Part shown: piece after piece, positions 3,789-27,300 of the stretch
Layout: each line of letters starts with the position of its first letter
Numbering within the stretch: position 1 is the stretch's first letter
Origin: Treponema primitia ZAS-2
Lineage (GTDB): Bacteria; Spirochaetota; Spirochaetia; Treponematales; Breznakiellaceae
Assembly (NCBI RefSeq): GCF_000214375.1
Contig: NC_015578.1
Span: 2,108,001-2,172,000 of the forward strand
DNA: 64,000 bases
Direction of reading: 5' to 3'
Translations under genes and position numbers: made by a program
Notes under the pieces: generated by a model
Databases searched by the model: none
What the model saw: the letters and a program-made list of their open reading frames with translations, nothing else
Told to the model about the DNA's origin: nothing

Positions 3789-3939
3789 TACTAATTCGTT
3801 GCTATATAAATAATTATGTCCATTTATCGGCACAAAATACCTCATTTTACTAGAATCCATAAAGAGTATACACCCATTTCTTATAAAATCCCATAAAAAA
3901 TATACCTTTTTTTGTAATAAAAGGCAAAAACGGCAAAAA

Positions 3940-3952: not shown

Positions 3953-4004
3953 ACTTTTGCCTAGTGTCGCCGGTGCCCAAAAAAAAGGTGACAAAAAGGA
4001 AAAA

Positions 4005-4017
4005 GGTGACTGTCACC
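4005..4017 (+). repeat. REP-like palindrome, copy 2
   Basis: GGTGACTGTCACC, preceded by an A-rich flank and a half-copy (AAGGTGACAAAAAGG at 3986-4000). Second of three copies upstream of the RAYT gene. Confidence 0.9.
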
Positions 4018-4078
4018 ATAAAGCAAAAAACAGGGCTGCCCCATATAGCTATCAAACGGTGTCATCAAAAAGCAAAAA

Positions 4079-4091
4079 GGTGACTGTCACC
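4079..4091 (+). repeat. REP-like palindrome, copy 3
   Basis: GGTGACTGTCACC, ending 14 bases before the RAYT start codon and only 5 bases before its ribosome site GGAGG. A hairpin here in the mRNA could affect RAYT translation. Confidence 0.9.
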
Positions 4092-4105
4092 GATTTGGAG
4101 GTTGT

Positions 4106-4621
4106 ATGCGGAAGAAACGGGTGTTTGAGGAAGGGGCGGTTTATCATGTTACGTCCAGGACGAACAATAAGCGGCTGCTGTTTGGGGATAGGTTAGGGAA
4201 GAAGATTATGCTCCTGACCCTGCGGAATGCGAAAGAACGGTACGGGTTTGGGCTGTTTAACTTTTGCATTATGCCGAACCATGTTCATTTGCTTATTCGG
4301 CCTGGGGATGGCGATCTTTCCCGGATCATGCAATGGATTAAGACCGGTTCGGCTAAGTGGTATAACCATATCCGGGGTACTTCCAACCATGTCTGGGGCG
4401 AGCGGTTTTTTGCGCGGGCGGTTCGGTCCCCGGAGGATTATATCACGGTTATGGGCTATATCGACCGGAACCCGGTAAAAGCGGGACTTGCCCCCGCTGT
4501 GGGGGATTGGCAGGAGTCGGGGGCCTACCATATCCAGCGCCGACTTACAGGGCTTGTGGACTATGATGAGTTTACGGAACAGCTCTATACCCCTCAGCGG
4601 CTGCTACTCGGTGAAAGGTGA
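4106..4621 (+). CDS. REP-associated tyrosine transposase (RAYT, IS200-like Y1 family)
   Basis: 171 residues, complete for this family. The HUH metal-binding motif is in MPNHVHLLI (His59, His61). The catalytic Tyr is most likely Tyr118 in GYIDRNPVKAGL, the family's conserved helix. RAYTs are single-copy domesticated relatives of IS200/IS605 transposases that nick single-stranded REP hairpins. The context fits closely: three copies of GGTGACTGTCACC lie upstream, and two more start at the gene's end, where the TGA stop is itself part of copy 4. The ribosome site is GGAGG at 4097-4101. It could have moved in with the prophage next door, but the repeats also occur outside the prophage, which favours a chromosomal RAYT-REP system. 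Confidence 0.9.
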   Translation: MRKKRVFEEGAVYHVTSRTNNKRLLFGDRLGKKIMLLTLRNAKERYGFGLFNFCIMPNHVHLLIRPGDGDLSRIMQWIKTGSAKWYNHIRGTSNHVWGERFFARAVRSPEDYITVMGYIDRNPVKAGLAPAVGDWQESGAYHIQRRLTGLVDYDEFTEQLYTPQRLLLGER

Positions 4622-4629
4622 CTGTCACC
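4617..4629 (+). repeat. REP-like palindrome, copy 4 (overlaps RAYT stop)
   Basis: GGTGACTGTCACC. Bases 4619-4621 are the RAYT stop codon TGA. Flanked by AAA and TTTT. Confidence 0.9.
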
Positions 4630-4640
4630 TTTTAGAGATC

Positions 4641-4653
4641 GGTGACTGTCACC
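4641..4653 (+). repeat. REP-like palindrome, copy 5
   Basis: GGTGACTGTCACC followed by ACTTTTGCC, the same right flank as copy 1. Copies 4 and 5 form a pair 11 bases apart, like a BIME behind the RAYT gene. Confidence 0.9.
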
Positions 4654-4666
4654 ACTTTTGCCGGAT

Positions 4667-4680
4667 AGGGCGGCGGCCCT
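4667..4680. promoter_or_regulatory. Left copy of a duplicated prophage hairpin motif
   Basis: AGGGC..GCCCT inverted repeat followed at once by ATGTTTCGGCCTGAAA. An almost identical block is at 16656-16687, at the head of the HTH-terminase module. Each copy sits just before the first gene of a phage transcription block, so a shared regulatory site is likely. Confidence 0.5.
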
Positions 4681-4720
4681 ATGTTTCGGCCTGAAATTTC
4701 GGGCGTATTCTTTCTGCACT

Positions 4721-5329
4721 ATGGGTATTACACCAAAACAAGAACGGCTCTTTTCTCTGGTCCCTCTGGGGGACTTTAAGGCTTTGCTCGGCATTGATGA
4801 CCGGGAGGATGCCTTGGCCCGGTACTGTCTGGTAACGGCTTCCTACACCATCGAGGAATACTGCCGGAGGCGGCTGCTGTGCAGGAAACGGACAGAATTT
4901 CTGCACTATTCGGGCGACCCGGTTATCCCTCTGGGGGATTATCCGGTCAGGAAGATTTTGGCGGTATACAAAATAGGCCGCCAAGGGGAAGAGCCGATCC
5001 TGCCGGGCCTATACCGTACTGTCCCGGAATGCGGGCCGGAGGATATCCCGTTTTGCCTTTCAGTGGACCCGGCTGCCGGGCTGGAACGGCGGGTTGTAGC
5101 GATAAGGGCGCTGTATCTGGCGGGGTATAGGCAGGGTGAAGTCCCCGCTGACTTGGCTTCGGCGTGCCTGGAGCTGGCGGCGTGGAATATGAGCCGCTTC
5201 CGGGGAAAGCGCATTGGGATGGCTGGGGCGGCGGTGCGGGGGAAGGCGGGGGTCGGGGAATACCTGGAGGCTTCAATGCCGGAGAACGTGAAGGCGCTGC
5301 TGGAACCGTACAGGCGGCGGATGCTGTAA
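4721..5329 (+). CDS. Phage head-tail connector protein (gp6-like)
   Basis: 202 residues from the ATG at 4721. A longer frame from a TTG at 4658 reads through the hairpin motif and is unlikely. The pattern is that of HK97 gp6/YqbG-type DNA-packaging connectors: an N-terminal helical part (DFKALLGIDDREDALARYCLVTASYTIEEYCRR, written here only as a pattern of helices), a middle beta part beginning YPVRKI, and a C-terminal helix with LASACLELAAWN. In the virion this protein forms a ring below the portal. It opens the left transcription block, right behind the duplicated hairpin motif. There is no strong ribosome site at 4721, so the start is less certain than the gene. Confidence 0.7.
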   Translation: MGITPKQERLFSLVPLGDFKALLGIDDREDALARYCLVTASYTIEEYCRRRLLCRKRTEFLHYSGDPVIPLGDYPVRKILAVYKIGRQGEEPILPGLYRTVPECGPEDIPFCLSVDPAAGLERRVVAIRALYLAGYRQGEVPADLASACLELAAWNMSRFRGKRIGMAGAAVRGKAGVGEYLEASMPENVKALLEPYRRRML

Positions 5330-5332
5330 AAA

Positions 5333-5345
5333 GGTGACTGTCACC
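5333..5345 (+). repeat. REP-like palindrome, copy 6 (inside prophage)
   Basis: GGTGACTGTCACC between the connector stop and the next ribosome site. This copy is inside the prophage operon. Confidence 0.9.
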
Positions 5346-5360
5346 TTTTAGGGAGGGGGG

Positions 5361-5807
5361 ATGGATTACACAGAAGATACTATCTTGCGGGGCGTTAAGA
5401 GGGTTCTGGCGGGGGCGGTTAATGAGTTGCTGGATGAGGAGCAAGACAATATCCCCCGGATTGAATTTCCCGGCCCTGTGGATGGGTATCTGGCTTTGAG
5501 CCGATTGAGCGGGAGTGTATGCCCGGATATTAGTCTGCTGGGCGGGGAGCGGACGGAAAAGGACCGGATTATTGGGCTTGAGGTGTTTGATCTGGCCATT
5601 ACTTTTTTTGTTCCCGAACTTGATGGCGAGCAGAATTGTTATGCCTATGCTGCTGCGGTGACTGGGGCACTGGAAGATGATCCTACCCTGGGGGGCGTGG
5701 CTGACCGGGCGGTGGTGGTTAAGAAAAAGTATACGCCACCCAGAACGGGGATTTTTGTGGATGGGTGGGAAGCGGTTCTGACGGTGCGGGTTTTTGTTGA
5801 GAAGTGA
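5361..5807 (+). CDS. Phage tail-terminator-like protein
   Basis: 148 residues. Start ATG follows GGGAGGGG. The size, the position after the connector, and the pattern DDPTLGG followed by a hydrophobic strand and GWEAVLTVRVFVEK fit tail-terminator/tail-completion proteins, which cap the tail tube and join it to the head. This is a family-style match with no catalytic motif to confirm it. The next gene begins 6 bases downstream, so the genes are co-transcribed. A REP-like palindrome lies just before its ribosome site. Confidence 0.55.
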   Translation: MDYTEDTILRGVKRVLAGAVNELLDEEQDNIPRIEFPGPVDGYLALSRLSGSVCPDISLLGGERTEKDRIIGLEVFDLAITFFVPELDGEQNCYAYAAAVTGALEDDPTLGGVADRAVVVKKKYTPPRTGIFVDGWEAVLTVRVFVEK

Positions 5808-5813
5808 GGGAGT

Positions 5814-6665
5814 ATGGTCAACGGAAGGGACTGCGTTATCGCTATCGGAACGGTGCCTGTCCCCTATGCGGAGGAAACGATCCGGGAGGCGGTGGCGGCG
5901 CTGATTGAACAGGCTTCTATCGAAGGGGACGGGGTGTGCCGGGGGATACAGAAAAACTGCGGGGTTACGGGGTGTATTGTTACGCCGCTGACTATTGGGA
6001 CTGCTCCCCTGCTTTTGGGCCTAGCCCTGGGGGAAGCGGGCATTCCGGTGTTTGTGAGCGAGACCCGGAATCTGTATCGGCGGGAACTGCGGCTGGTTCC
6101 TTACGAAGACGGCGAGCGTTTTGAACTGTGCCAGGAACGGGGGGAGCGTGGCAAACGCTTTGAGGCTTGCGGGGTATCGGGGTTTGAACTGCGTATCCAT
6201 CAGGGTGAGGCAGTAAAACTGCGCCTTGATATTGCCGGGGAGCATGGGGGAGCGCCCTACCCGTCTGAGGGGGGCAGGGAATTTGCCACCGGGGAACGGT
6301 TCAAGGAAAACGGCGTGAGCTATACGGTGAATGGGCGTGAGCTGCGGGAGATCTACGGGCTGACTATTGCGGCCAAAAAGATAGGGGGGACGAAAACGGA
6401 GGTTTGGATTCACCGGGTATTGGAAGAATCGGCTGATATCCCTCAGGCGATAGAAAAGCTGGAAGTTACGGCGCGGCTGTACCGGGATAGGTATGAACAG
6501 GGGAACCAAGGTTCTGGGAACCTTGGGCTGTTCCGGCTTAGGCTTTCCCGGCTGGTGATGATGTCTGATGAAACGGCGGTAGACGCCGCTGATGCGGTTA
6601 TCGGCCCCTTGCGGTATTACTGTGCCGGGGATTTCACGGCTGAAGTTTTTTCAGAAGGGAATTAG
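5814..6665 (+). CDS. Probable phage tail tube/major tail protein
   Basis: 283 residues, beta-rich, with no membrane segment or signal. Position between a tail-terminator-like gene and a tail-hub-like gene argues for a major tail (tube) protein. Internal patterns (GVTGCIVTPLTIGTAP, ending in an ...AGDFTAEVF strand) are compatible but not diagnostic. Start ATG lies 6 bases after the previous stop with GAGGGAG as ribosome site. No tail-assembly chaperone pair follows, as it would in most siphophages. It could alternatively be another structural tail component. Confidence 0.5.
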   Translation: MVNGRDCVIAIGTVPVPYAEETIREAVAALIEQASIEGDGVCRGIQKNCGVTGCIVTPLTIGTAPLLLGLALGEAGIPVFVSETRNLYRRELRLVPYEDGERFELCQERGERGKRFEACGVSGFELRIHQGEAVKLRLDIAGEHGGAPYPSEGGREFATGERFKENGVSYTVNGRELREIYGLTIAAKKIGGTKTEVWIHRVLEESADIPQAIEKLEVTARLYRDRYEQGNQGSGNLGLFRLRLSRLVMMSDETAVDAADAVIGPLRYYCAGDFTAEVFSEGN

Positions 6666-6668
6666 AAA

Positions 6669-8156
6669 ATGAGGTTTTATGCCATTGACGATTCTCTGAA
6701 AGAGGCGATTGACAAGGGGACAGCGGCAGTAAAGGTGCGGGTTGAAATAGAACGGGGCGGACATTTTGAGGCGGTTTTTGAGCGGGACATTATTGAAGCG
6801 TCATTCTATGGGCTGAAAGAAGTTGCGGGTGGGACTTCCGCCCGTGGGGAGGTTTTGCTGGATAATCCTAAGGGGATGTATTCAGCGGAGAACGGGGCGG
6901 GGCGGGAAGTGCGGGTTAGTTTTTCTATTGGAGAGGGGCTGCCCTGGTTTCAGCGGTTTACGTTTTTTGTGGATGGCAAGGGGTTTCAGGACATCCGGGG
7001 GCCGGGGCGGGTGCGGCGGGTACTGCTGGGGCTGCGTGACCGTTCGGCGTTTTTGCGGCGGACTGATGAGAGCCGGGACTGGACACAGCCTGCGGTTTTT
7101 ACCTACTCGGTTATCTGCGATAAGACGCAGCCGGAGAAATCCCTGGTTCACCGGATTGCGAAGCGGGCCGGACTGGCGGTGCAGGATATTGACTGCGCCA
7201 CTATCCCTGTCACGCTGCCCTACGTGAAGCTGACGAAGAATACCTGGGCTGAGCTTTCGGCCCTGGCAACGGCGTACCGCTGCCACCTGGAATGCCCGGT
7301 AGAAAAGCCCCTGGTCTTTGCCCATTCGCCTTACCAGGATGAGCCTCTATCTGCCGACGATGAAAATCCTTCCTACACCTTCACCGGGGTCGATATTTTT
7401 TACTTGCGGGTTACCGAGCGTGCGGACCAGTACCGGAATACGGTGCGGCTTAAAATCAATATTCCGGTAGCTTTGGAAAAACAGGAAATCTGGCGCTATG
7501 AGGATCCGCCTGTTCTGTATGATTCGAGCCTTGCCCCGGTGTACCCCTTCCGGGGTTCCGCTTTGCGGGATATTGAGCAGTACGATTATGAAGCGCTCTA
7601 CACAGTCAAGGATAGTAAGGGGGCGGAACGGCGGGTTATTTTTGCCGACCAGATAGACACCATAGAAGAAGCGCAAGAGCGCTTGAGCTATGAGGGCGGG
7701 CCGTTTGTATACTCCGCTTATGACACTACTACCCACCATGACAAGGCGATTATTACCCTGGGCTCTGACAATGATGGGGATTTGTTTAAGGCGTCCATTT
7801 TTGGGCGGCCTATTGTCCTTGATGTTAATAGGTCTGCGTTTTTGCGGGATAGCAATGCGGTGACCCTGCATGGGACTTGTGCGCTGAACGTTACGGGCTC
7901 CTATTTTTCGGAGGATGTGTTCAATGGGCGCCCTCAATACGAGGACTGGACAGCGCAGGAATTGGCAGAGAGGTTACAGGAGCGGCGGGAAATTACGGTG
8001 AAAACCCACCGGGCTTTGTTCCATGGGCGGGTCGGGGCACGGGTGAAGATCGAGACCAGGGACGGAACTGCCAAGGGCACGGTTAATGCCTTTTCTCTGC
8101 GGTATAAACGTGACGCCGCTTTTGTAGCGGCGTTTAAGGTGACTGTCACCACATAG
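6669..8156 (+). CDS. Phage tail hub/tip protein
   Basis: 495 residues, soluble, mixed beta structure. The C-terminus (RVGARVKIETRDGTAKGTV followed by strands) resembles the beta-domains of phage baseplate-hub and tail-tip proteins, and it ends directly upstream of the lysis cassette, where tail tips usually sit. Start ATG lies 3 bases after the preceding stop. The last codons (V-T-V-T-T) are supplied by a REP-like palindrome at 8138-8150, so the protein's end has absorbed a repeat copy. No tape-measure gene lies between this gene and the tail-tube-like gene. Exact role inferred from position. Confidence 0.5.
   Translation: MRFYAIDDSLKEAIDKGTAAVKVRVEIERGGHFEAVFERDIIEASFYGLKEVAGGTSARGEVLLDNPKGMYSAENGAGREVRVSFSIGEGLPWFQRFTFFVDGKGFQDIRGPGRVRRVLLGLRDRSAFLRRTDESRDWTQPAVFTYSVICDKTQPEKSLVHRIAKRAGLAVQDIDCATIPVTLPYVKLTKNTWAELSALATAYRCHLECPVEKPLVFAHSPYQDEPLSADDENPSYTFTGVDIFYLRVTERADQYRNTVRLKINIPVALEKQEIWRYEDPPVLYDSSLAPVYPFRGSALRDIEQYDYEALYTVKDSKGAERRVIFADQIDTIEEAQERLSYEGGPFVYSAYDTTTHHDKAIITLGSDNDGDLFKASIFGRPIVLDVNRSAFLRDSNAVTLHGTCALNVTGSYFSEDVFNGRPQYEDWTAQELAERLQERREITVKTHRALFHGRVGARVKIETRDGTAKGTVNAFSLRYKRDAAFVAAFKVTVTT
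8138..8150 (+). repeat. REP-like palindrome, copy 7 (within a coding end)
   Basis: GGTGACTGTCACC occupies the last sense codons of the tail hub gene, just before its TAG and the AGGAGG of the next gene. Confidence 0.9.
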
Positions 8157-8165
8157 GAGGTTTGT

Positions 8166-8393
8166 ATGGGAGAGGAATTACAACGGCTTTTAGTTGATAC
8201 CATTGCAGAAATGCGGGAACTGAAAGGGGAACTGCGGGAATTCAAAAAACACGTCATGGGGCGGGTTGAAAAGCTGGAAAAAAAGGAGGGGGAACGGCGG
8301 GGGGACTTGAAGGCTACGGTGAGCGTGCTTATTGCGGCGGCGGCGCTAGCGGTAAGTATTATTGTTAATTTTTTTCGGCATGGAGGTAAATGA
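8166..8393 (+). CDS. XhlA-like membrane-associated lysis protein
   Basis: 75 residues. Residues 1-45 are a charged amphipathic helix/coiled coil (MRELKGELREFKKHV), and residues about 48-68 are one membrane segment (ATVSVLIAAAALAVSIIVNFF), ending in a short basic tail. This is the layout of haemolysin XhlA-type proteins, which accompany holin and endolysin in many prophages. AGGAGG at 8155-8160 is the ribosome site. Its TGA stop overlaps the next gene's start region, giving a coupled lysis cassette. Confidence 0.65.
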   Translation: MGEELQRLLVDTIAEMRELKGELREFKKHVMGRVEKLEKKEGERRGDLKATVSVLIAAAALAVSIIVNFFRHGGK

Positions 8394-8914
8394 TGGGTAT
8401 TAAATGGGACAAGGTTTTTGAGAACGAACAGCGTCAGTTTGAAAAGATGACGGAAGCGGAAAAGTTTATCTACTTTCTGCTTTTGCAGTTTAATTCGCCT
8501 TATGGGTGGGGGAAGGAAAACCCTGAATTGTCGGACTGTTCGGGGGCGGTGTGCCTGGCTTTGTTTGCGGCAACCGGGCACTTCATCAGGACTACTGCGG
8601 ATGATTTGTATAAGCGGGTGTTTACGGCACAGCGCCCTTCACCTGACGGTATCAAGGCGGCGTTTTTTGTTGACGGGAAAACTGGGGCGGCTTCCCATGT
8701 TGCGGGGCTGGTTGGGGACGGCGTGGTGCTTAATTCACAGGAAGGGGGCGCACGGGTCCGCAGTTTGGACTTCCTTTCTGCGTGGTTCTGGAACCGGGGA
8801 TCGTCTACCGCAATCCGGGGGCTGGACCGGGCAGCACTGGTCCGTTTGTCCCATGAAGGATCGCGCTACGATGTAGACCCGGAACTCAGGCGCTATATGG
8901 AAATAGCTTTATGA
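8393..8914 (+). CDS. NlpC/P60-type endolysin
   Basis: 173 residues from the ATG at 8393, chosen over an ATG at 8390 because GGAGGT (8382-8387) then has 5-base spacing. The NlpC/P60 signature is visible: YGWG...SDCSGAV with nucleophile Cys49, and a general-base His in GAASHVAGLV (His102). The third, polar residue is not clear. These enzymes cut cell-wall peptides, usually next to D-Glu or meso-DAP, and here the job is host lysis. No signal peptide, so it needs the neighbouring holin. The stop overlaps the next start (ATGA). Confidence 0.85.
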   Translation: MGIKWDKVFENEQRQFEKMTEAEKFIYFLLLQFNSPYGWGKENPELSDCSGAVCLALFAATGHFIRTTADDLYKRVFTAQRPSPDGIKAAFFVDGKTGAASHVAGLVGDGVVLNSQEGGARVRSLDFLSAWFWNRGSSTAIRGLDRAALVRLSHEGSRYDVDPELRRYMEIAL

Positions 8915-14621: not shown

Positions 14622-14725
14622 GTAGGCGTGTCAGTAGTTGTTGCCGGGTTACATTTAAGTGAGCAAAATTTGGGGACGCACGCGCCCCCCGTGGCTGAAA
14701 AAAAAGAATGACGGATGACGGATGG

Positions 14726-14837
14726 GTGACACATGGCGGGGGTTTGATGTGTCACTGAAATTTGATGGATGGCGGTTCCGGGGAATAGTCCGGGATTCCT
14801 TCAGTTACTATAAATTCTTCTTGTGACACTTGTGTCA
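14726..14837. promoter_or_regulatory. Cluster of GTGACAC/GTGTCAC half-sites
   Basis: GTGACACAT (14726) and ATGTGTCAC (14747) form a perfect 9-bp inverted repeat 12 bases apart. TGACAC-TT-GTGTCA (14824-14837) is a second palindrome using the same half-site. Two symmetric sites about 90 bases apart look like operators or replication iterons. Confidence 0.5.
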
Positions 14838-14968
14838 TTACAAAAAGGAGACTGTATACTTTTGGGCTCTATAAAAAAGAATGGGAAACTGGGGTCAATG
14901 GTGTCATGCTGTCATTGGGATTTGCGGCGCCCCCGAAGGGGGCGGTTGTTGGGGGTTCGGCCCGGCAT

Positions 14969-16466: not shown

Positions 16467-16566
16467 GTCCTACGGATTCATCGTATACGGTTATAGGCGG
16501 CGGACTGCGGGGCCAGGCGTACCAGGCGGCTACGCCGGGGAAGAAAATTACGGTAAGTTTGATTGT

Positions 16567-16601
16567 GCCTCTCTGGTTTATTGCCGGAGCGGCTTTTTTT
16601 G
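16567..16601 (+). terminator. Terminator upstream of the packaging module
   Basis: GCCTCTCTGG / CCGGAGCGGC stem then seven T. This ~42-base block, with its upstream TTTGATTG, is nearly identical to the reverse complement of the integrase terminator at 22828-22861. Confidence 0.7.
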
Positions 16602-16655
16602 TTTTCAGCTCTGGTGACCTTTCCCTTCCCAATGAACCGGGGCCTTTTCGTTTAT

Positions 16656-16687
16656 AGGGCCGTGGCCCTATGTTTCCGGCTTAAAAA
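16656..16687 (+). promoter_or_regulatory. Right copy of a duplicated prophage hairpin motif
   Basis: Perfect AGGGCC-GT-GGCCCT followed by ATGTTTCCGGCTTAAAA. It matches the block at 4667-4697. It lies about 60 bases before the HTH gene that opens the packaging module. Confidence 0.5.
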
Positions 16688-16745
16688 TCGGTGGACACTA
16701 TCGGTGTACGCAGGAGAGCGTTTCTGCGCTGCAAAGGAGCCGGAT

Positions 16746-17018
16746 ATGGGAAAGATGCTGAACATCAACGAGGTTGCGGAAAGAACGCTGGTTGCGGTTT
16801 CTACGCTCCGCAAATATACGATGCTGAACCGGATTCCGTATAAAAAATTCGGCTCGAAAGTGGTTTTTGATTCTGAGGAAATCGAATTGTGGATAAAAGC
16901 GAATTCCTTTGGGCTTGAATCAATTACGCAAAGCGGCGCAAGCGGGACCGTTACTGCCGCTTCCTCGGCGCCTGCCCCTGGCGAGCTGTTCCCGGTGGCG
17001 GGGAAACGGGGGAAGTGA
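16746..17018 (+). CDS. Small helix-turn-helix protein (excisionase/AlpA-like)
   Basis: 90 residues from ATG 16746 behind AAAGGAG. Residues 4-50 form a MerR/excisionase-type winged helix: LNINEVAERTLVAVSTLRKY, a turn, then KKFGSKVVFDSEEIELWI. The C-terminal 35 residues are a low-complexity Ser/Ala/Pro tail. Such proteins bind short DNA sites as excisionases, activators or terminase-associated factors. Being first in the packaging operon and overlapping the next gene's start, it could control late genes, excise the prophage with the integrase, or assist terminase. It is the only classic DNA-binding protein in the prophage besides the LuxR-like one. Confidence 0.75.
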   Translation: MGKMLNINEVAERTLVAVSTLRKYTMLNRIPYKKFGSKVVFDSEEIELWIKANSFGLESITQSGASGTVTAASSAPAPGELFPVAGKRGK

Positions 17019-17560
17019 TGGCCGATTTTGAAAAAATCATCGAGGCAGCTAAGGCAGAATTGCTGCCCTTTGAAAGCTGGGAACGGCTGCCGGGGGAAAC
17101 TTCTTCTGCGTTTGCGGCGTTTGGGGAGTACCGGGATTCCGGGCCGGGCCGGACTATCAAGAAGGCGGTGGATGGCTATTGCAAAAAGCAGGGGGTGGAC
17201 CCGGTTCTGGCGGGGAAGCGGTACCGGGCCTGGCGGGCATGGTCCATGCAATTTAAGTGGCGGGAACGGGCGGCGGACTATGACCGCTACCTGGACAGGC
17301 TGAAACAGGCGGAGCTTCGCAAGCTTATTGAGGCGCGGGGCGAGGTTCACCGGCAGGTGACGGACAAAATGTTGCAGGTGGTTTCCAAGAAGCTGGACCT
17401 GATGGACCCGGCGGACTTGGCGCAAGGTACCGTTACTGCATGGGTTGAAACAGCAATACGGACGGAACGGGAAATGGCGGGGCTAACTAACGGCAAGGAA
17501 AGCAGGATGGAACCAAAACAGGATGAGCTTCCCTTTGCCAATGAATTTGAAGGGCTTTAG
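17018..17560 (+). CDS. Terminase small-subunit-like protein
   Basis: 180 residues from the ATG at 17018, which overlaps the preceding TGA (a GTG at 17015 is also possible) and follows GGGGGAA. Helical throughout, with the block YRAWRAWSMQFKWRERAADYD and a long charged helix after it, features common to small-terminase-like proteins upstream of PBSX-type large subunits. It ends with KQDELPFANEFEGL. Small terminases recognise phage DNA and load it onto the motor. Assignment rests on position and style. Confidence 0.65.
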   Translation: MADFEKIIEAAKAELLPFESWERLPGETSSAFAAFGEYRDSGPGRTIKKAVDGYCKKQGVDPVLAGKRYRAWRAWSMQFKWRERAADYDRYLDRLKQAELRKLIEARGEVHRQVTDKMLQVVSKKLDLMDPADLAQGTVTAWVETAIRTEREMAGLTNGKESRMEPKQDELPFANEFEGL

Positions 17561-17574: not shown

Positions 17575-18795
17575 ATGCGGTATACGCTGACGGGGGCACA
17601 GAAAAAAGCGCTTGACCTGCTAAAAAGCGGGGCAAAACATATTCTGCTGTTTGGCGGTTCCCGGAGCGGCAAAACAACGGTACTGGTGCTGGCGATACTG
17701 TATCGTGCCTGGCACTATAAAGGCTCCCGGCATTTGATATGCCGCCTCAGGGCGAAGGATGCCCGGTCATCGGTATTGCAGGAAACCTTGCTGCCGATGT
17801 TGCGGAAAACGCTTGCGAAAGGGGAATTTCGTTACCTGGCCCATGAAAGCAAGGTTACCCTTTCTAACGGGTCTGAGATTTGGATTGGCGGCCTGGGGGA
17901 CCGGGAACAGGCTGACAAGATTCTCGGCCATGAGTACAACACGATTTATTTTAACGAGATTTCACAGCTTTCCTATGCGGCGGTTACTACGGCCTATTCA
18001 CGCCTTGCTATGCGGGTTCCCGGCTGCCGGAACCTGTTCTTGTACGACTGCAATCCTGGTTCGCCTCTACACTGGGCGTATAAGATTTTTATCCGCAAGC
18101 AGCAATTTCTGTGTGGGGAACCGCTTGTAAAACCGGAGTTGTACGCTTCAATGCTATTGAACCCGGCGGACAATAAGGAAAACCTGGCTGAGGATTATAT
18201 CGCCGATATTCTTGACGCGCTGCCGGATAAGCAGCGGGCACGGTTCCGCGATGGCGCCTGGGTGAAGGCCGAAGGGGTTATCTATGAGAAGTTTGACGAA
18301 ACCATGATTCTTTCCCCGGAAGATTTGCCGGAAAACTTTGACCGGATTTGTGCAGGGCAGGATTTTGGCTTGAATATTACGAATGTAAAGATAGGAATCT
18401 GTAACGATATTATTTATGTGCTTTCCGATTACGGCGCCTATAACATGACTACAAAATCATTCAACACGGAATTGCTGGCCCGTGGCTTGTTTCAGTGGAA
18501 TGGGGATGATGTGGACTTTCCGGTGTACTGCGACCCGGCGGGGGGCGAGCGGATACAGGAAATTACGAATGGAACCAAGGCAAATAACAGTGTTGAGAGC
18601 GGCATTGACTTTATCAATGCAAAGATAGAACGGGGGCAGTTTTTTATTGCCAATAGCTGTATTGGCACACTGTCAGAGGTATGGGATTACTGCCGGGATG
18701 AGGCGGGGGAAATAGTAAAAGTGAACGATCATTACATGGATGCGCTGCGCTATGCGGTGTTCAGTGATGCCCAGCAGGGGGTTATTGCCCAATGA
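17575..18795 (+). CDS. terL: Phage terminase large subunit
   Basis: 406 residues, the usual length for the PBSX/XtmB type. ATPase: Walker A GGSRSGKT (27-34), adenine-side YTLTGAQK at the N-terminus, Walker B TIYFNE (123-128), coupling region YDCNPGSPLHWAY (157-169). RNase H-like nuclease: Asp263 in GQDFG, Asp320 in CDPAG, and Asp385/Asp389 in NDHYMDALRYAV. It pumps DNA into the prohead and cuts it. It follows the small-subunit gene by 14 bases with GGGAGCAGAAGGG as ribosome site, and overlaps the portal start (ATGA). Confidence 0.92.
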   Translation: MRYTLTGAQKKALDLLKSGAKHILLFGGSRSGKTTVLVLAILYRAWHYKGSRHLICRLRAKDARSSVLQETLLPMLRKTLAKGEFRYLAHESKVTLSNGSEIWIGGLGDREQADKILGHEYNTIYFNEISQLSYAAVTTAYSRLAMRVPGCRNLFLYDCNPGSPLHWAYKIFIRKQQFLCGEPLVKPELYASMLLNPADNKENLAEDYIADILDALPDKQRARFRDGAWVKAEGVIYEKFDETMILSPEDLPENFDRICAGQDFGLNITNVKIGICNDIIYVLSDYGAYNMTTKSFNTELLARGLFQWNGDDVDFPVYCDPAGGERIQEITNGTKANNSVESGIDFINAKIERGQFFIANSCIGTLSEVWDYCRDEAGEIVKVNDHYMDALRYAVFSDAQQGVIAQ

Positions 18796-20021
18796 GCCTT
18801 CTAAGAAAATTTATTTCCGGAATAAGGATAGCTACTGTAAGGAAGAAAAGCACGGAAGCGAATTTGTCTATTTATGATGATTTTAGTAATTTATTGGAAA
18901 CACCCGGCGAACCGGATGGGTACTCCTGCAATGCCTGGGTGCATATTGCGGTACAGATTTTGATTCGCAATATTGCCCGCGCAGATTTTATGGTGCTGCG
19001 GGGAGGGGACGAAGTAACGGGCGGGCCATTGTTTGAACTGTTCAGAAGGCCGAATGAAGGCTTGAGCCGGTTTGAGCTCTGGAAAGAAACCGCCGCATGG
19101 TGGCTTTTGGAGGGGGAGGCGTTCTGGTGGTTCGGGGCTGAATATGCTGGTGGCGTGCCACAGCATATCTATATCCTGGACCCCCGGCGTATGCGGAATG
19201 AAGGCATGGACGGGTATGCCGGGCAGTCTTTTTGTTCAGGGCGGCAGCGCTGGTTTTATCAGGGCGATGCAGAGCTAATCCCCATTTTTCAGGATGAGCT
19301 TATTCACTTCCGGGACTGGAATCCGTGGAATCCCCTGCGGGGGGTTAATCCGCTTATCTCCCTGTCCCTGGAATTGGAACAGGATTTCTACGCGAATAAG
19401 GCCAATTCGCGTTTGTTAAAGAACAACGCCGTTCCTCTCGGCGTTCTGAAAACTGAACAGACTATCCGCCCTGAGGAGGCGGATGCTTTGGAAAGGAGGT
19501 GGGAACAGAAATACGGCGCTGACCGGGGTTACCGGAAGGTTGCCGTGTTGGGAAAAGGGACTGAGTTTAAACCGCTAAGCTTTACTCCGGATACGGTTCG
19601 ACTCTTTGACCTTAAACGGTGGAATTTGCATGCGATACTGGCGAAATACGGCATTCCTCCCAGGGTGGCGAACATTAACGATAAAACCGCAAGCCTGTCC
19701 GGCAAGGATACCATGGAACAACACGCCGCACTTTGGAAGTTCACGATAATTCCGCTGCTGAAAAATTTTGAAGACATTCTGGAAACCCAGTTTTTTTTAC
19801 GGCTGGGTTTCCGGGAAACGGGTGTTTTTGACCTATCCGATATCCCGGAATTGCAGGAAAGCGAAGATGCGCAAAGCAACAGGGATATTGCGGAGATCAA
19901 TGCGGGGCTTAAAACGATCAATGATGTGCTGCGTGAGCGTGGCAAGGATACAAAGCCCTGGGGCGATATCTGGTACATGCCAAAAGGCCTGGTTCCCTAC
20001 AAGGATAGCACAAGGAGTTAA
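18792..20021 (+). CDS. HK97-family portal protein
   Basis: 409 residues. Family features: CNAWVHIAVQILIRNIARAD near residue 45-65, a central block with LIHFRDWNPWNPLRG and GVNPLISLSLELEQDFY, and the C-terminal stem helices (KYGIPPRVANINDKTASLSG then FEDILETQFF). Portals form the dodecameric ring through which DNA passes. It overlaps terL by 4 bases and is followed after only 3 bases by the response-regulator-like gene, whose ribosome site (AAGGAG) lies inside the portal's last codons. Confidence 0.9.
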   Translation: MSLLRKFISGIRIATVRKKSTEANLSIYDDFSNLLETPGEPDGYSCNAWVHIAVQILIRNIARADFMVLRGGDEVTGGPLFELFRRPNEGLSRFELWKETAAWWLLEGEAFWWFGAEYAGGVPQHIYILDPRRMRNEGMDGYAGQSFCSGRQRWFYQGDAELIPIFQDELIHFRDWNPWNPLRGVNPLISLSLELEQDFYANKANSRLLKNNAVPLGVLKTEQTIRPEEADALERRWEQKYGADRGYRKVAVLGKGTEFKPLSFTPDTVRLFDLKRWNLHAILAKYGIPPRVANINDKTASLSGKDTMEQHAALWKFTIIPLLKNFEDILETQFFLRLGFRETGVFDLSDIPELQESEDAQSNRDIAEINAGLKTINDVLRERGKDTKPWGDIWYMPKGLVPYKDSTRS

Positions 20022-20024: not shown

Positions 20025-20726
20025 ATGAAACAGCCAAGCATTGTTATTGTGTCCGATTCCCGGACCGTTGCGCATATGTTGATGTCCCATATTGGGGGCG
20101 TGGACAGGGATGCTATCAGCATTACAGGGAGCAAAACGGAACTGAACTACCTGCTGCGGGTATACCGGCCCCGGTTTATGTTTATCGAAAACTGCTTTGA
20201 GGGCCGGGTCACCAATGCCCTGGTGCATCGGCTGATGGAGCGGGACCCGGATTTGCTGATCAGCGTGTTTACTATTCAGGAGTATGCGGCGTATGAGGTT
20301 GCGAAATTCATGTACTGGGGAGCGGCTAGTTTCTTGAGTATCCGGGATGATCCTGAGGCTATTGCGGCGGGGATGCGGAAAATACTGAAAGGCGAATCCT
20401 GCTACCCTGACGGCGCGGCAGAGGCGGTTGAACACGCAGAGAACCGGGCGCAGCTCAATACCCGGTCACTGACTATGCGTGAAGGGGAGGTGCTGCAGCT
20501 TGCGGCGGACAATAAAAGTAACGGGGAGATTGCAAAGGTTCTGGGTATATCGGTCAGAACGGTGCGGAACCACCGGGACAATATCCTGCGGAAGTGCGAG
20601 GGGCACAGTCTGATGGATATGGTGAAGTTCGGGCTGCGGGAAGGGATTTTGCAATATGACGAATTGGTTGGCGAAGATCGCCATTCGTTCAAAGAGGGAG
20701 GAGTTAGGAGGGCGGGAGTATGTTGA
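20025..20726 (+). CDS. LuxR/NarL-type response-regulator-like protein inside the head operon
   Basis: 233 residues. Residues 5-128 follow the receiver fold (SIVIVSDSRTVAHMLM, then PRFMFIEN, then GAASFLSIRDDPEAIAAGM). Residues 148-205 are a GerE/LuxR helix-turn-helix (LTMREGEVLQLAADNKSNGE, then GISVRTVRNHRDNIL). The phosphoacceptor Asp is replaced by Glu55 (FIEN where families have LLDI), and the conserved Lys near 106 is lost, so phosphorylation control is probably absent and Glu may mimic the active state. Translationally coupled to portal upstream and overlapping the protease start downstream, so it is a true phage operon member. It may regulate late phage genes or host genes; its target is unknown. 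Confidence 0.85.
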   Translation: MKQPSIVIVSDSRTVAHMLMSHIGGVDRDAISITGSKTELNYLLRVYRPRFMFIENCFEGRVTNALVHRLMERDPDLLISVFTIQEYAAYEVAKFMYWGAASFLSIRDDPEAIAAGMRKILKGESCYPDGAAEAVEHAENRAQLNTRSLTMREGEVLQLAADNKSNGEIAKVLGISVRTVRNHRDNILRKCEGHSLMDMVKFGLREGILQYDELVGEDRHSFKEGGVRRAGVC

Positions 20727-21388
20727 TACGGACTAAGGGCGGGGAATTCAGGGCTGATACATCATCAGTGCTGCTGGATTTTCTTGGGGTGAAAAAGGAA
20801 GCGGCTGGGGTTCAGAAGCTTGCAGGTGACCTGGAATTGATCGCTGCTGTGCCGTTTTGCCTGGCGCTTGATTCTGAAAACAGCAATGGTATCCCCTGGA
20901 CATTCAGCACTTTCGACCTTGACCGTTTTGACGAGCGTATTGACCCGGCTGGATGGGACTTTAAGCGGTACGTGCAAAACCCGGTCATTGAATGGGCGCA
21001 TTGCTACTCGATTCCGGCGATTGGGAAGGCTGACGGGCTGTACGCCGATGACAAGGGCTTGCACGGGTCTATCATCTTTAATGGCAAGGACTATGATCCC
21101 TTTGGCTGGGCTATCGGGGAGCGGGTCAAGAATGGGGTTATCCGGGCAGGTTCAGTAGGGTTTCGGGTACTGGAAGTTGAGATTCCTTCAAAGAAGGATG
21201 GTGAGGACGGGACGGCGCTGATTTTCCGTAAGCAGGAGCTATTGGAATTTTCGGTGTGCAATGTTCCGGCGAATCCCTTTGCCCTGGCAAATCCTGTGCT
21301 TACTAAGGCAGCCCCGGCGGAACCTGGGCCGGTGTCGCTTGACTTGCAGGCATCCCGGCAATTCTGGGCTGGGCTTATTCAGGGGTAA
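20720..21388 (+). CDS. Prohead (head maturation) protease, HK97/S78-like
   Basis: 222 residues from an ATG overlapping the previous stop, behind AGGAGG. Catalytic pattern of HK97-type serine proteases: His94 in EWAHCYSIPAIGKA and Ser145 in IRAGSVGFRV, followed by ELLEFSVCNVPANPFAL, the family's conserved strand. It removes scaffold segments from the capsid protein during head assembly. It sits directly before the capsid gene, as usual. The C-terminal ~35 residues are variable. Confidence 0.85.
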   Translation: MLIRTKGGEFRADTSSVLLDFLGVKKEAAGVQKLAGDLELIAAVPFCLALDSENSNGIPWTFSTFDLDRFDERIDPAGWDFKRYVQNPVIEWAHCYSIPAIGKADGLYADDKGLHGSIIFNGKDYDPFGWAIGERVKNGVIRAGSVGFRVLEVEIPSKKDGEDGTALIFRKQELLEFSVCNVPANPFALANPVLTKAAPAEPGPVSLDLQASRQFWAGLIQG

Positions 21389-21456: not shown

Positions 21457-22758
21457 ATGGATGAACTGATTAAGGCGATTAAAAAAAAGCTGGCGGATAT
21501 GCAGAAAATTGAGGCTGCAGGATTCCGGGACCAGGAGAAGGCGGCGGACTATTTCCGGGAAAAAGAGGAGCTGCTTGAGGATATTGTAAAAGCCCTGGAA
21601 GCGGTTGCCGTGGGACAGGCGCAGGAAACAGAAGCGTTGAAAAGCACGGTCAAGTCGCTGCGGGGGGAACTCAAGGGGCAGGCGGCAAATCCCCGTGAAT
21701 TGTCCCGGAAGGAATTGCAGTACCGATTGGGCAAAGCCCTGGCGGCGGCCTGGACGGGGAACCATGGGGCCTTGGCGGAATTAAGTTTTACGCCGAACTT
21801 GAAAACGGATAACTGGACGAATCCCCGTGACGTGTCCTGGGGCGAAAAGGGATGGAAGGTTGACCGGGCGGCGCTGGGGGAACCGATGGGCAATCTGGCT
21901 ACGAATGACCAATACCTCATCAACCCAATTTATGAAAACGAGATTATGCAGGATGCTGCAAAAAAATCGAAGATGATGAAATTGGTTCATAATCGCTCAA
22001 TGATGGGACCGTCAATATTTTTGCCTACACGGGACCGGGGCGGGGTGCAGCTTCACTGGCTGACGGCTTACGGGCAACAGATTACCGGGAGCAAGCCCCA
22101 GGGGTCGCAGCGCGTTGAGCTTAAAGCCTACACCCTTGCCGGGTTTATCCCGTGGTTTGACGAATTCGAGGAGGATGTGTTTACTGACCTGGGCGCCATG
22201 TTCATAGACGAATTCTGCGAAGCGTATGGGCAAGAATTTGACCGTCAATGCCTGCTTGCCGATGATGATCCCTTTACCGGGGCGCTGGCGAAGGATGGGA
22301 CAGAGGAGATTGAGATTGCCGGGGCGGATATCAATGCCTTGACCTGGAAGGACTTTCGGGATGCGGTGTATAGGGTTCCTGAGGAAGAGCGCAAGGATTG
22401 TGCGTGGTTCCTCCATGAGACTGTGTTGAACCATATTGCCAATATCGAGGATGCTAACGGGAACCCGATTTGGCGGCGGCCAACTGAGGCTATGCCGGGG
22501 AAACTGGACTTGTACCCGTATCATGAGGTTTCCATCATGCCGCAGATCGGGGCGGTCGAAAACGACACGGCGTTTGCGATATTCATGAACCCGAAACGGA
22601 TCAAACACGGCAACCGAAAGGGTATTGAGATAAAGAAGTTTGACGGGACCACAGAATCAATGGAGAACGGAGAACTGTTCCTGCGGTTCCGCAAGCGGGA
22701 TGGATTTTTAGTAACCAGGCCGCAAGGGAATATAGTTGTTCTGAAAACTAAAGCGTAA
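21457..22758 (+). CDS. Major capsid protein, HK97 fold
   Basis: 433 residues. The N-terminal ~110 residues are a charged coiled coil (delta/scaffold domain, KKKLADMQKIEAAGFRDQEK) that the upstream protease would cut off. The rest has HK97 capsid features: SMMGPSIFLPTRDRGG, an E-loop with WLTAYGQQITGSKP, KAYTLAGFIPWFDEFEED for the spine helix, and a C-terminal A-domain ending RKRDGFLVTRPQGNIVVL. It is the last gene of the packaging block, ahead of a clear terminator. In most phages the connector and tail genes would come next; here those are at 4.7 kb. Confidence 0.9.
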   Translation: MDELIKAIKKKLADMQKIEAAGFRDQEKAADYFREKEELLEDIVKALEAVAVGQAQETEALKSTVKSLRGELKGQAANPRELSRKELQYRLGKALAAAWTGNHGALAELSFTPNLKTDNWTNPRDVSWGEKGWKVDRAALGEPMGNLATNDQYLINPIYENEIMQDAAKKSKMMKLVHNRSMMGPSIFLPTRDRGGVQLHWLTAYGQQITGSKPQGSQRVELKAYTLAGFIPWFDEFEEDVFTDLGAMFIDEFCEAYGQEFDRQCLLADDDPFTGALAKDGTEEIEIAGADINALTWKDFRDAVYRVPEEERKDCAWFLHETVLNHIANIEDANGNPIWRRPTEAMPGKLDLYPYHEVSIMPQIGAVENDTAFAIFMNPKRIKHGNRKGIEIKKFDGTTESMENGELFLRFRKRDGFLVTRPQGNIVVLKTKA

Positions 22759-22827: not shown

Positions 22828-22861
22828 AAAAAAGCCGCCCCGGCTATAAACCAGAGCGGCG
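22828..22861 (-). terminator. Terminator after the integrase gene
   Basis: On the minus strand: GCCGCTCTGG ... CCGGGGCGGC then six T, 22 bases after the integrase stop. Nearly the same sequence occurs on the plus strand at 16558-16601. Confidence 0.8.
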
Positions 22862-22882
22862 CAATCAAATTACCTTTTTATA

Positions 22883-24121
22883 CTATGCTTGCTTTCTTGC
22901 CGCAGCTTTCCTACTCGGTTTAGCTGTCGGCGCAGCCTTGGGCTTTCCGGTTTTTTTTACTGCTTTCTTTGTTTCCCTTTTCTTCCGGGTTATAAGGATA
23001 CTCTGCTGGGCGGCTACCACATCTTTGAATTCTTCGCTCTTCAGGTGGGTATACCGTTTATTGACATCAATTGAAACTTGCCCGGTTACTTCCAGTACCT
23101 TCCGATCAGAAATATTTTCCATCACCAGCTTGGTATTCAGGAAGTGCCGCCAGCTATGGGGGCTCAAGCCCCGGCGCTGCCGTTCAGTGTCGTCTATCCC
23201 AATCTTCTTAAGGGCATTTATATAGCCGGAACGAAGCGTAGACCGGGAAAGCGGTGTTTCCCCGCCATCCTCTGAAAACAGAAAGGCTGTGCCATTTTTC
23301 TTGATAAGGTCATAGAGGTCCTCATAAATTAAGCCTGTAATCGGTACATTACGGGACTTTTTGGTTTTTGTTCCCGTCAGCTTTTTTTTAGCGGTATATT
23401 GCCATTCTACACGAATATACTCTGGGAATACACAATCGCCCCGCAGTCCTAAAAGCTCCCCGGCACGCATCCCGGTGAAGGCCGCTACTTTATTCAAGAG
23501 ATATAAGTAATAGGAATCCCATATTAAATTCCATCGTGCCGGAAACAGCTTCCGTACTTCCGGGATAGTCAAAATTTCTATGCTCCGGCAATTCTCTTTT
23601 AGTTGCTCAACCTTCATTGCAACATTCTCGTGCAGGATCTTCCGGCGTACTGCTTCGCTCAGCATAACCCGTAGGGTGTAATAATGGTTATTGATATAGG
23701 TATGCTTGTATTCCTTGTCAGCTAACTCAAGCATCCAGTTTTCAATATCTATTTCGGTAATGGTATCCAGCCGCATATCTCCGAAGTAGGACAGAATATG
23801 TCCTCTCAAGTGCCCTGCAGAAGTATCAATAGTCCCATCAGTAAGGGGATCATGCAATTCCCGCCATTTTGTGTACGCGCAGGTTTCGCGGTTAAACCAC
23901 CCCTCCGCATACTGCCGAAAAATAGGAATCCGCTTTGAAGGAACCAGATACCCCAGTTTCAAAAGCCGGTTGCATTCCTTCCACGCCTCGGTGCGCAGGG
24001 ATTTTCCGGTAGAATGGGGAACCGTCCTCCGGCCTTTCTCGTCGTAGGTCTGGTAGTAGTACACTACTTTTCCGGAAGGCATTTTCCGGGGGAATATGGT
24101 GTAATCATTCTTGATTCTCAT
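22883..24121 (-). CDS. int: Tyrosine-family phage integrase
   Basis: 412 residues. N-terminal AP2-like arm-binding part (about 8-60, with VYYYQTYDEKGRR), SAM-like core-binding part (about 65-170), catalytic domain (about 180-365): Arg219 in TGMRAGELLGL, Lys near 255 (TKTKKSRNVP), His322 and Arg325 in HSWRH, Tyr357 in RYTHL. The second His position reads TGQVSI, Gln for the more common His, which some integrases tolerate. A Lys/Ala-rich tail (residues 375-412) follows. It reads toward the capsid gene and has its own terminator. It would integrate and, with a partner such as the HTH protein, excise the prophage. The att site is expected just upstream of its start. Confidence 0.92.
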   Translation of the reverse strand: MRIKNDYTIFPRKMPSGKVVYYYQTYDEKGRRTVPHSTGKSLRTEAWKECNRLLKLGYLVPSKRIPIFRQYAEGWFNRETCAYTKWRELHDPLTDGTIDTSAGHLRGHILSYFGDMRLDTITEIDIENWMLELADKEYKHTYINNHYYTLRVMLSEAVRRKILHENVAMKVEQLKENCRSIEILTIPEVRKLFPARWNLIWDSYYLYLLNKVAAFTGMRAGELLGLRGDCVFPEYIRVEWQYTAKKKLTGTKTKKSRNVPITGLIYEDLYDLIKKNGTAFLFSEDGGETPLSRSTLRSGYINALKKIGIDDTERQRRGLSPHSWRHFLNTKLVMENISDRKVLEVTGQVSIDVNKRYTHLKSEEFKDVVAAQQSILITRKKRETKKAVKKTGKPKAAPTAKPSRKAAARKQA

Positions 24122-24375
24122 AGTGCCCCCTTGCCCTGTGCCGGGGACAGTGTCCGCCCTGCCTTTTTCATAAAACCGCTATTCTTTCCCATAAAAACCT
24201 CTTTCGGGCTCTGCTAACACAAGTGCTAACAAGCCCTTTTGCAGATTTGTAGGCCCTTAGAATTAGCAACGCTAATTCTTTACAGGGTAAGGAATAGCAC
24301 GGTTTTTCAAGACCGTGGTATAGAGCAAAGGCCCTAGCAAATAGATGACTGTCACCTTTTCTGTCTGATCAACTG
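24122..24375. other. Integrase upstream region, candidate attachment-site area
   Basis: No gene. Contains TGCTAACACAAGTGCTAACA (two TGCTAACA half-sites, possible arm sites), GAATTAGC-AAC-GCTAATTC (24260-24278, perfect 8-bp inverted repeat), CACGGT/ACCGTG (24298-24317) and two near copies of AGGCCCTTAG. These repeats suit integrase arm and core binding, but no matching core was found near the left prophage edge. Confidence 0.4.
24344..24356 (+). repeat. REP-like palindrome, copy 8 (one mismatch)
   Basis: GATGACTGTCACC followed by TTTT, 19 bases beyond the stop of the giant lipoprotein gene. Confidence 0.75.
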
Positions 24376-27300
24376 TTACTCATTCACCGGGTAAGAGAAC
24401 TCGATGAAGTCACTCAGGTAGCCCAGCACGGGCTTGTAGCCATTTGTTGAGCTGGTAAAGTCCAGGTTTACCTTTTGGAACTTCGTGCTGCCGCCCTGGG
24501 GCTCGGTCATGGCCGGGACGGTCATGTATTCCCAGTCGCCGGTGGTATAGCCGTTAGCGTCCACCCCGCCTTTGACAGAAGCCAGACTTGTAACGGCGTC
24601 CTTCGCGTAGGCCATCTTGATACTATCATGGCCGCCGGTTTCAGTGGCGTTGTAATAAGCGATATAGGGTTTCTTCGTCGAGGGGTGGAGTTTAATCTGG
24701 GTCCAGTTTCCTACCGACGCATACTGATCCACCGTTACCGCCGTAAAGGAGTTGGCGGTATGGTCGGGGATGTAGATGTATTTCAGATCGCTGTCTATGG
24801 CATCGAAGGCGGCAATGTGCAGGCCGTCATTGGCGTCCATTACCATGGAGACATGGGTGCCCACATAGTAGGGCAGGCTGGCATTTACCGGCGAATTGGT
24901 CCAGGTTACCGGCGCAGTCGGATTACTTCCGTCCACAGGCCCGGAGGAGTACTTGATTTTTAAGCGCCCATCGGACTTGTCGTAATAGGCAATAACTACA
25001 ATGTTAGTGCTGGATGTTACTGCCATATCAAAATAATTGGACGCCCCAGAAGCAGCCTCAAGGCGGCCTGTGCTCCAGGTGGTGTTTCCTGTCCCGGTAT
25101 TCTCTGTAAGATTGGTGCGGGATTGGGCGCCAAATCCAATACCTTTGTTATCCAGCCCGCTGTGGTACAACTGTCTGGTTTCAGTAACATCTGTAGTAAC
25201 ACCTATTCTGAAATTACGGAAAATCAGCTGATTGCTTTGGTTGTCGAAATAGGTCATGTAATACCTGGCATAGCTGGTAGCGGAATTCCCTTTGGCAATA
25301 ATTTTGGGGTACTGATACCGGTCAAGTAAGAGGGCGTTTAAATTGACGGTTTCCAGGGCAATCGCATTATTAGTGTTGTCAAATGCCCAGTTATAACCAG
25401 TGTAGGCATTATAATCGGAATAGCCGGTACCGCTTCCCCATCCTAATCCAGAACTTGTGTGTAATTCCGCATACCGGTCATAAATGAGGTGGAATGTCGC
25501 GCCGTCCCGGTTATAGGTAGTGGCATGGATGTACCTGCCCGATTCATCCCTGGCCATACCCATGGTGTCCCAGATAGACGCCTTGATCAGATATTCCGTA
25601 TCCTGCCGCGCTCCGGTCCCAAGGTCAAATCTTGTACGCTGGGGCATGGCATGAGTGGGTTGATAGGTACCGGCATATTTGTTCGCTCCTATTGCGGGGG
25701 TTCCACTGGAACCGCCGGTCAAATCAAGGTACCCGAATACCGGATTATCCCCTTCCATAAGCATGACCGGGTAATACCCGTTTTTAACGTCGGTCTGTTT
25801 AACCGTATAGAACTGCAGGTAACGGTCATCGGTGAGGCGTATGTTCTTGGTGTTATAGCGGTCAGCTTCGCGGTTGGGCATATTTTCCTGGTCCAGGCCG
25901 TTGGTGCTGGAAGTAAGCGTATATGCCCCATGGGAATCGTTGGCGTTGATGTTATTCAGGGTACCCACCGGCGCCGTAGTAGTTCCGCTGTATACTGCCA
26001 GGTATCCTGACTTGGTGGAAGCATTAGTGGCTGAGAACCCGGTTGCAGTAGCGCCGGTAAAGGTCAAGGCTGTTCCCACTGTAGCATAGCCCGTTGTCGC
26101 CGGGTTATAAGTGTCATTCTGAGCAGCAGTAAGGATCCGTACCCCGTTGGCTATGGGCCTAAGGTTAAAGCCTGTAACGGTTATAAAGTTGGCATTGGAG
26201 CCTTGAATTACCGAGTACTTGCCGTCGGCGGAACGGATGTTATTGTCCTTTAAGCCGCCCTGATTCCGCACACCGGTACTAATCTTCGAGATATAGGGTA
26301 CCACGTCCATGCGGTAATAGGGTGTTTTGGCAGCAGCCGTCGTGGTCTGGGTAGCAGTTCCCAGGGAAGGGGTATTTGAAGAATCCCTGGCAATAACCCT
26401 GAAGGCCCGGTCAGAGGCAGCATAATCGGCAATTTTACTGGTATCCAGATCGAGCCGCCAGTTTACCTTATGGCCTTCCTGATCGTGGGACAGGGGCTCC
26501 ACCGTAAGATGCCAACCGTTTGTTGCCCAATTACCGGCGCCGGTAAGGACGCCTCCTGTGTAGGAAGCAGCCTGGGCATAAATTCTGCCATTATCACTGA
26601 TAGTGTTCGCAGCCCCGGTAAAGCTAAACCCTTCCATATAGAACCAGAGAGAACCGAGTATGTTGTTGTCCTCGGCGCTTCCCCGTATGCTTATCTGCCC
26701 TGAAACCTTGGGATCCTTGTCCAGAATACCCGTAGTACCAGTAAATTTATCGGAGGGCAGATCCGCTTCCAGCTCTATGTGGCCGTTATCTTTACTGTTC
26801 CCGTAGAGGGAATTATCCGAGGCATTGTTCCAGTAGAAGGGGTTTACCACCACTTTGGGGGGCGTTTGGTCCACGTTATCCACATCAATACTGAAGACAG
26901 CCGCCTGGGCAAGCTGCTGGGCTTCAGCGCCCCCTGTTGTCGAATCATAAACCTTGACGATGAAGAGCTTGTTACGCATAAGCGTTGTAGTATCTCCAAT
27001 GAGAGAATCGCTAATGCCGGTAAAATCCGTACCGGTACTATAGGAAACTGTCACATCATGGGTGGTGGAACTGGCAAAATTCCCTGCCTTGGGGGTTGTA
27101 GTGGCTACCTGGGTATAGCCGTAGGCGTCACCGCTGGTCCCGTCGGAAGCAGACGCGGACTTCAGGGCAACAAAGGTGGTTCCCGCAAGGTTACTGGGAG
27201 CGCCCAGCCTGGTCCAGCGGGTATTCCCCTCGGTATTAATGGTATAGACCTGACCCACCGTAAGGGCGCTTGCCGCTGTAGCGGTACCATTCTGTGTTAC

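Follow-up and report, generated by a model that had tools for sequence, protein, structure and literature searches.

The window analyzed here, 64,000 nucleotides of the Treponema primitia ZAS-2 genome (2108001-2172000 on a single contig of 4,059,867 bases), contains a phage head operon whose genes run in the order HTH_17 gene, TerS, TerL, portal, regulator, S78 protease, and HK97 capsid (Table 1). The portal gene (PF04860, E 2.4e-61) ends three bases before the ATG of the regulator and contains its ribosome-binding site, and the start of the S78 protease gene (PF04586) overlaps the regulator stop codon; the regulator is thus coupled to both neighbors. A first-pass annotation of this DNA had described a receiver-plus-GerE protein between portal and protease, coupled to both, and the reading frame, the Pfam matches, and the AlphaFold and Foldseek results agree with that description. 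A 42-nt inverted repeat (90%), possibly of terminators, lies on either side of the head operon (16558-16599 and 22828-22869), and a repetitive reading frame of 5955 aa on the minus strand (24376-42243) directly adjoins the integrase gene.

Table 1. Late-gene features and proposed regulator sites in the window
Feature	Position	Strand	Remarks
Tail-operon copy of the element	4665..4702	+	56 nt before the connector ATG; proposed regulator site
Head-tail connector	4721..5329	+	gene 1 of the second late operon
Remainder of the connector/tail operon, as sampled	5361..8914	+	tail terminator (5361), unassigned genes, NlpC/P60 protein
Head-operon element	16654..16691	+	ATAGGGCCGTGGCCCTATGTTTCCGGCTTAAAAATCGG; 7-2-7 dyad TAGGGCC-GT-GGCCCTA; proposed regulator site
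-10-like hexamer	16696..16701	+	CACTAT, 3' of the dyad, chosen by eye
Small HTH_17 (xis/AlpA-like) gene	16746..17018	+	head operon gene 1
Terminase small subunit (TerS)	17015..17560	+	phrog_6299
Terminase large subunit (TerL)	17575..18795	+	
Portal protein	18792..20021	+	PF04860
Regulator, 233 aa	20025..20726	+	degenerate receiver ~1-121, linker helix 129-145, GerE/LuxR-type HTH 148-206
Prohead protease S78	20720..21388	+	PF04586
HK97-type major capsid protein	21457..22758	+	
Tyrosine integrase	22883..24121	-	
Weak third dyad copy	24321..24336	.	2 mismatches, upstream of the integrase; tentative

Pfam detected only the GerE half of the window regulator (E 4.6e-15), and the receiver model gave no match at E ≤ 1. 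Structure prediction of the receiver had been suggested with the first-pass annotation; an AlphaFold model (pLDDT 90, pTM 0.68) contains a five-stranded (βα)5 receiver followed by the linker helix and the GerE HTH. The best solved matches to this model in Foldseek were LiaR, VraR, RcsB, and EvgA, with NarL and VpsT also among the matches. The residues expected of a working receiver are largely replaced. Glu55 and the missing conserved Lys, both noted previously, were confirmed in the window regulator, where Glu55 stands at the end of β3 and the place of the acidic pair is taken by S10-D11. In 145 aligned members of the family, position 55 is D in 49, E in 40, G in 36, and another residue in 20; position 10 is S or T in 117, position 11 is R in 83, and at the site where receivers have Lys, other residues are the common ones. 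The Response_reg Pfam model matched 3 of 84 members, compared with 84 of 84 for GerE (PF00196). Because the acidic pair, the phospho-Asp, and the Lys all depart from the ordinary pattern, the regulator is, as judged by its residues, a pseudo-receiver relative of NarL/FixJ proteins and not a working response regulator. The alignment indicates that the receiver is dead family-wide and that the Asp-to-Glu replacement seen in the window represents one of the states of a site subject to drift; since Asp, Glu, Gly, and Ser replace one another at position 55, Glu55 is no conserved phosphomimic. The earlier suggestion of a constitutively active or ligand-controlled regulator is supported insofar as it implied independence from phosphorylation, and the interchange at position 55 weakens a reading of Glu55 as a meaningful phosphomimic. 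The family is a case of a receiver domain retained after the loss of phosphorylation chemistry.

Related loci were gathered with the portal as bait, because loci are then found with or without a regulator gene, and a few were added from a regulator search. From 160 distinct portal segments, 148 were kept; the other 12 had a bit score <250 (six) or <600 nt downstream of the portal (six). All but one of the 148 loci have an ORF of 206-278 aa directly 3' of the portal, and an iterative profile search identified a regulator homologue in that slot in 147 of 148 spirochaete phage loci. The same 147 of 148 were joined when only the first 140 residues served as the query. The sole miss, L100, was a transketolase on a fragment. 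Record titles give termite-gut, rumen, and other spirochaetes as hosts, along with two contigs binned as other phyla, and the portals of the homologue-bearing loci range down to about 53% identity. In three out-group phages (portal ~25% identical), no such gene is annotated after the portal; the gene there encodes a prohead protein (GBK2) or minor head proteins. With the regulator alone as the query, a viral_contigs search gave no relative, and a search of 50,697 phage records gave only four weak matches. Absence of the gene from related phages had been named beforehand as the outcome that would mark it as a stray host insertion, and the loci compared here point the other way: on this evidence the regulator belongs to the core genes of these spirochaete phages and did not arrive by chance insertion.

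Each of the two late operons in the window is preceded by a copy of one 38-bp element (element A; Table 1). The two copies are 82% alike and belong to one repeat family (D16). The motifs near 4667 and 16656, earlier singled out as possible targets, are real and are the likely sites of the regulator; no element copy was found in a third proposed target region, 14720-14840. Weak element-like sites also precede integrase genes in L034, L104, and the window. A separate palindrome, GGTGACTGTCACC, forms an eight-member family, not all exact, at window positions 3933-5355, 8136-8162, and 24337-24366; these repeats surround a Y1 (IS200-like) transposase gene (4106-4621), an arrangement that resembles a REP-RAYT system adjoining the prophage.

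The pairing of elements recurs in other prophages. In a second prophage of the window genome and in two prophages of a further genome (G032), the head and tail operons are separate and follow one another on a single strand, the head operon first; in the termite-gut elements, the distance is ~15-25 kb. Element B, AATATTACCTTTGTGAAATATCCAGTT, precedes both operons in the second prophage (with small differences) and in one G032 prophage, and element C, AATTAGGGAAAACCCCTAATTACTTC, precedes both operons of the other G032 prophage, again with small differences. Co-resident prophages thus differ in their element (A and B in the window genome, B and C in G032), and a single host factor does not explain them. 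Head and tail shared an element in eight of eight unselected prophages (that of the window, the three just named, and four out-of-sample ones), seven of them on single contigs. In an out-of-sample search, a connector gene was present in 4 of 21 records, and in this blind test the phage's own tail promoter ranked first of 46 tails in all four cases, with a 33/33-nt match in one pair (dyad CTAGCCA-AG-TGGCTAG). Where head and tail lie on separate contigs of a metagenome bin, 5 of 10 heads matched their own tail (L044, L085, L091, L092, and L135, but not L088, L036, L039, L040, or L045); several or partial phages per bin perhaps account for the mismatches. In a 12 × 12 head-tail matrix, own pairs scored ≥16 in 12 of 12 phages, eight of which came from the earlier comparison and four of which (L044, L085, L091, and L092) were kept because they matched, with the five non-matching heads omitted. 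Other pairs scored ≥15 in 8 of 132 cases, all between phages of the same HTH group, and none of 20,000 re-pairings attained the observed sum. A reading of the termite-gut integrase-to-capsid unit as a head-only satellite was dropped, the same-strand tail operon ~15-25 kb away sharing its element. In three rumen and other spirochaete loci (L170, L172, and L138), the genes for integrase, xis-like protein, TerS, TerL, portal, regulator, protease, capsid, and connector lie within ~9 kb, and those beyond look unrelated (HsdM-like in L172). Inspection by eye recognized no tail or lysis genes within 13 kb, and these loci could be capsid-forming satellites. In one G032 prophage (L268 6275-10433), ImuB-like and DnaE-type polymerase genes were seen by eye between the head and tail operons.

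In the 4.06-Mb window genome, exact matches to element A number four: the two in the window, one before the tail operon of the second prophage, and one by a connector fragment at 3457151. All four are located in phage DNA or in what is left of a phage, which gives no support to the idea that the regulator rewires the host. Allowing three mismatches added two genome sites, and the reversed control also gave two. Element B has three genome sites, all in the second prophage, one of which (with three mismatches) precedes the integrase gene. No host sites were found in the 4.06 Mb. The tail start of the second prophage (G000:C1:2196633-2196886, L265) carries its own element B with element A just upstream; there, element A is accompanied by a duplicate of the connector start, the trace of a promoter exchange between prophages. 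A third tail operon of this genome lies at G000:C1:2045566-2048934, where the portal search detected no portal gene.

When 23 promoters were aligned on the element, with anchors set by eye, TATAAT-like hexamers peaked 30-32 nt downstream (mean 5.28; 95% point of the null, 4.70). This spacing places the element near -43, and class-II activators bind around -43. No sigma-70 -35/-10 pair was found near 16650-16750.

Element type also tracks the DNA-binding half of the regulator. When 62 head promoters were grouped by HTH similarity, like elements fell together. Element sharing (score ≥18; 31 of 1485 pairs) was then scored over 55 non-redundant loci, a set to which the rumen and marine members do not belong. 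The AUC was 0.937 for the HTH, 0.924 for the receiver, 0.91 for the xis-like protein, 0.77 for TerS, 0.748 for TerL, and 0.714 for the portal, figures that are not blind since the region used was narrowed after the HTH grouping had been seen. The partial correlation of the HTH given receiver, portal, and TerL was 0.253 (0 of 500 permutations), and that of the portal given regulator and TerL was -0.064. TerL and portal sit between the promoter and the regulator gene and predict element type poorly; linkage alone is therefore insufficient. In an earlier test by rank correlation, on a wider region of 115 nt, the HTH added nothing to the effect of receiver and portal (-0.013; 1168 of 2000 permutations). 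A separate wide-zone comparison and an analysis by connected components were confounded by coding sequence and by the terminator of the integrase gene. In some loci, HTH identity exceeds 0.5 with no clear common element.

Sequence comparison further indicates that the regulator is diverging far faster than its neighbor genes. Among 88 pairs with portals 85-90% identical, median identity was 94% for TerL, 74% for the protease, and 37% for the regulator. Within the termite-gut clade, median identity was 0.36 in the HTH half versus 0.44 in the receiver half, and the receiver half was the more conserved in 80% of 3124 pairs. Control proteins gave the opposite order, with the receiver more conserved in 14% of 43 pairs among 13 proteins, a control slightly weakened in that, beside 11 host regulators, it includes two phage members (L020 and L028). 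Rumen and marine members follow the control order (receiver more conserved in 28% of 173 pairs). In close pairs (14), dN/dS was raised yet <1 in many regulator comparisons, though not in all, which suggests relaxed or shifting constraint and perhaps gene exchange and is no proof of positive selection. Regulators from the same genome were less alike than the portal-matched median in 11 of 13 pairs, which are not all independent and include one strong exception, with two further listed pairs unscored.

Taken with the paired elements, these observations favor a candidate reading, to which we assign a probability of about 0.78, in which the regulator would be a phosphorylation-independent activator of the late operons with a DNA specificity that has been repeatedly re-keyed. 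Its degenerate receiver would serve as a structural or dimerization module. Made from the head operon, the protein would bind a phage-specific, dyad-like element located ~43 nt 5' of the start of each late operon and activate the head and connector/tail operons, two units separated in the prophage; the resulting positive feedback loop would hold head and tail production in step. HTH and elements would change together, and fast, each prophage reading its own late promoters only. The model presumes binding, dimerization, activation as the sign of control, and a first trigger of the operon. The suggestion in the first-pass annotation that the regulator times late gene expression fits the presence of an element before both late operons.

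The regulator might instead bind the same elements and repress, acting as a lysogeny or immunity repressor that shuts off the head and tail operons and perhaps that of the integrase. Rapid, paired change in HTH and operator does resemble heteroimmunity, and the weak third sites upstream of the integrase in several phages would suit such a role. However, the gene would then lie inside the operon to be silenced, the element occupies an activator position relative to the inferred start with no -35 found, and one prophage has a separate CI-like gene (L268 4740-5369, by sequence reading only); we consider repression unlikely. A second alternative assigns the element to the xis-like HTH_17 protein, with the regulator merely traveling with the head genes. 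AlpA-like proteins are regulators in other elements, and xis-like identity predicts element type (partial correlation 0.165, 0 of 500 permutations, beside the AUC given above). But the xis-like gene lies <110 nt from the element, so that linkage is expected, whereas the regulator, encoded 3-4 kb from the element and beyond the poorly predicting TerL and portal, is the better predictor (AUC 0.94; partial correlation 0.311 with xis, TerS, TerL, and portal held). In addition, the xis-like gene was found in only 62 of 113 loci with two search profiles, and in more with other seeds. This alternative appears improbable. A role of the protein chiefly in the virion or its assembly, with a relic DNA-binding half, would account for its constant slot 3' of the portal in 147 of 148 loci; we regard it as very improbable given GerE in 84 of 84 members, the co-variation of HTH type with promoter elements, and the three out-group phages that lack the gene. 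Chance capture of a host regulator, for which the commonness of NarL-family genes in the hosts might speak, is refuted for practical purposes by syntenic homologues in 147 of 148 loci with portals down to about 53% identity.

The activator reading can be set against known systems. The NarL/FixJ regulators LiaR, VraR, RcsB, and NarL share their fold, domain order, and GerE HTH with the phage regulator, and NarL sites have a 7-2-7 dyad geometry akin to that of the element. Unlike these proteins, the phage regulator lacks phosphoacceptor chemistry and holds a fixed slot in the head operon, and, unlike in host NarL/FixJ proteins, divergence in the termite-gut clade is faster in its HTH than in its receiver. 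CsgD, VpsT, JadR1, and ChxR are atypical pseudo-receiver regulators that act free of phosphorylation, possibly under ligand or dimer control; the regulator described here differs in being a phage core gene. Phage proteins that bind and activate several late promoters are already known, among them P2 Ogr and Mu C (PMC4461284). The likeness proposed for the regulator is that one small protein would activate several late promoters; neither it nor its family members gave a Mor/C or Ogr Pfam match, and, unlike Mu C and P2 Ogr, it is encoded inside the late operon that it is proposed to drive. Phage quorum-sensing LuxR-type receptors also bear a GerE DNA-binding domain. Such receptors, encoded by temperate phages, bind host autoinducers (PMC6456758). 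They bind the autoinducer through another N-terminal domain; the window regulator gave no Pfam match to an autoinducer-binding domain at E ≤ 1, and identity with this class was rejected for lack of the ligand domain.

Phage genes of termite guts were reportedly the subject of earlier work by Tadmor et al. in 2011. Searches of the open-access literature listed nothing on this gene for spirochaete phages, nor any putative late activator derived from a degenerate response regulator, fixed in the head operon of a whole phage lineage and re-keyed together with its sites. The analysis proposes a function for a gene that recurs in spirochaete phage head operons and names its likely DNA sites. We give an even chance to the broader view that a response regulator, its phosphorylation chemistry lost, was turned into the core late activator of these spirochaete phages, where it coordinates the split head and tail operons and perhaps the integrase, and that its code is continually re-keyed under diversifying pressure, such that co-resident prophages would not fire each other's late genes. 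The dozens of natural regulator-operator pairs in this one family may serve to test DNA reading by GerE recognition helices and the means by which co-resident prophages keep their regulation separate.
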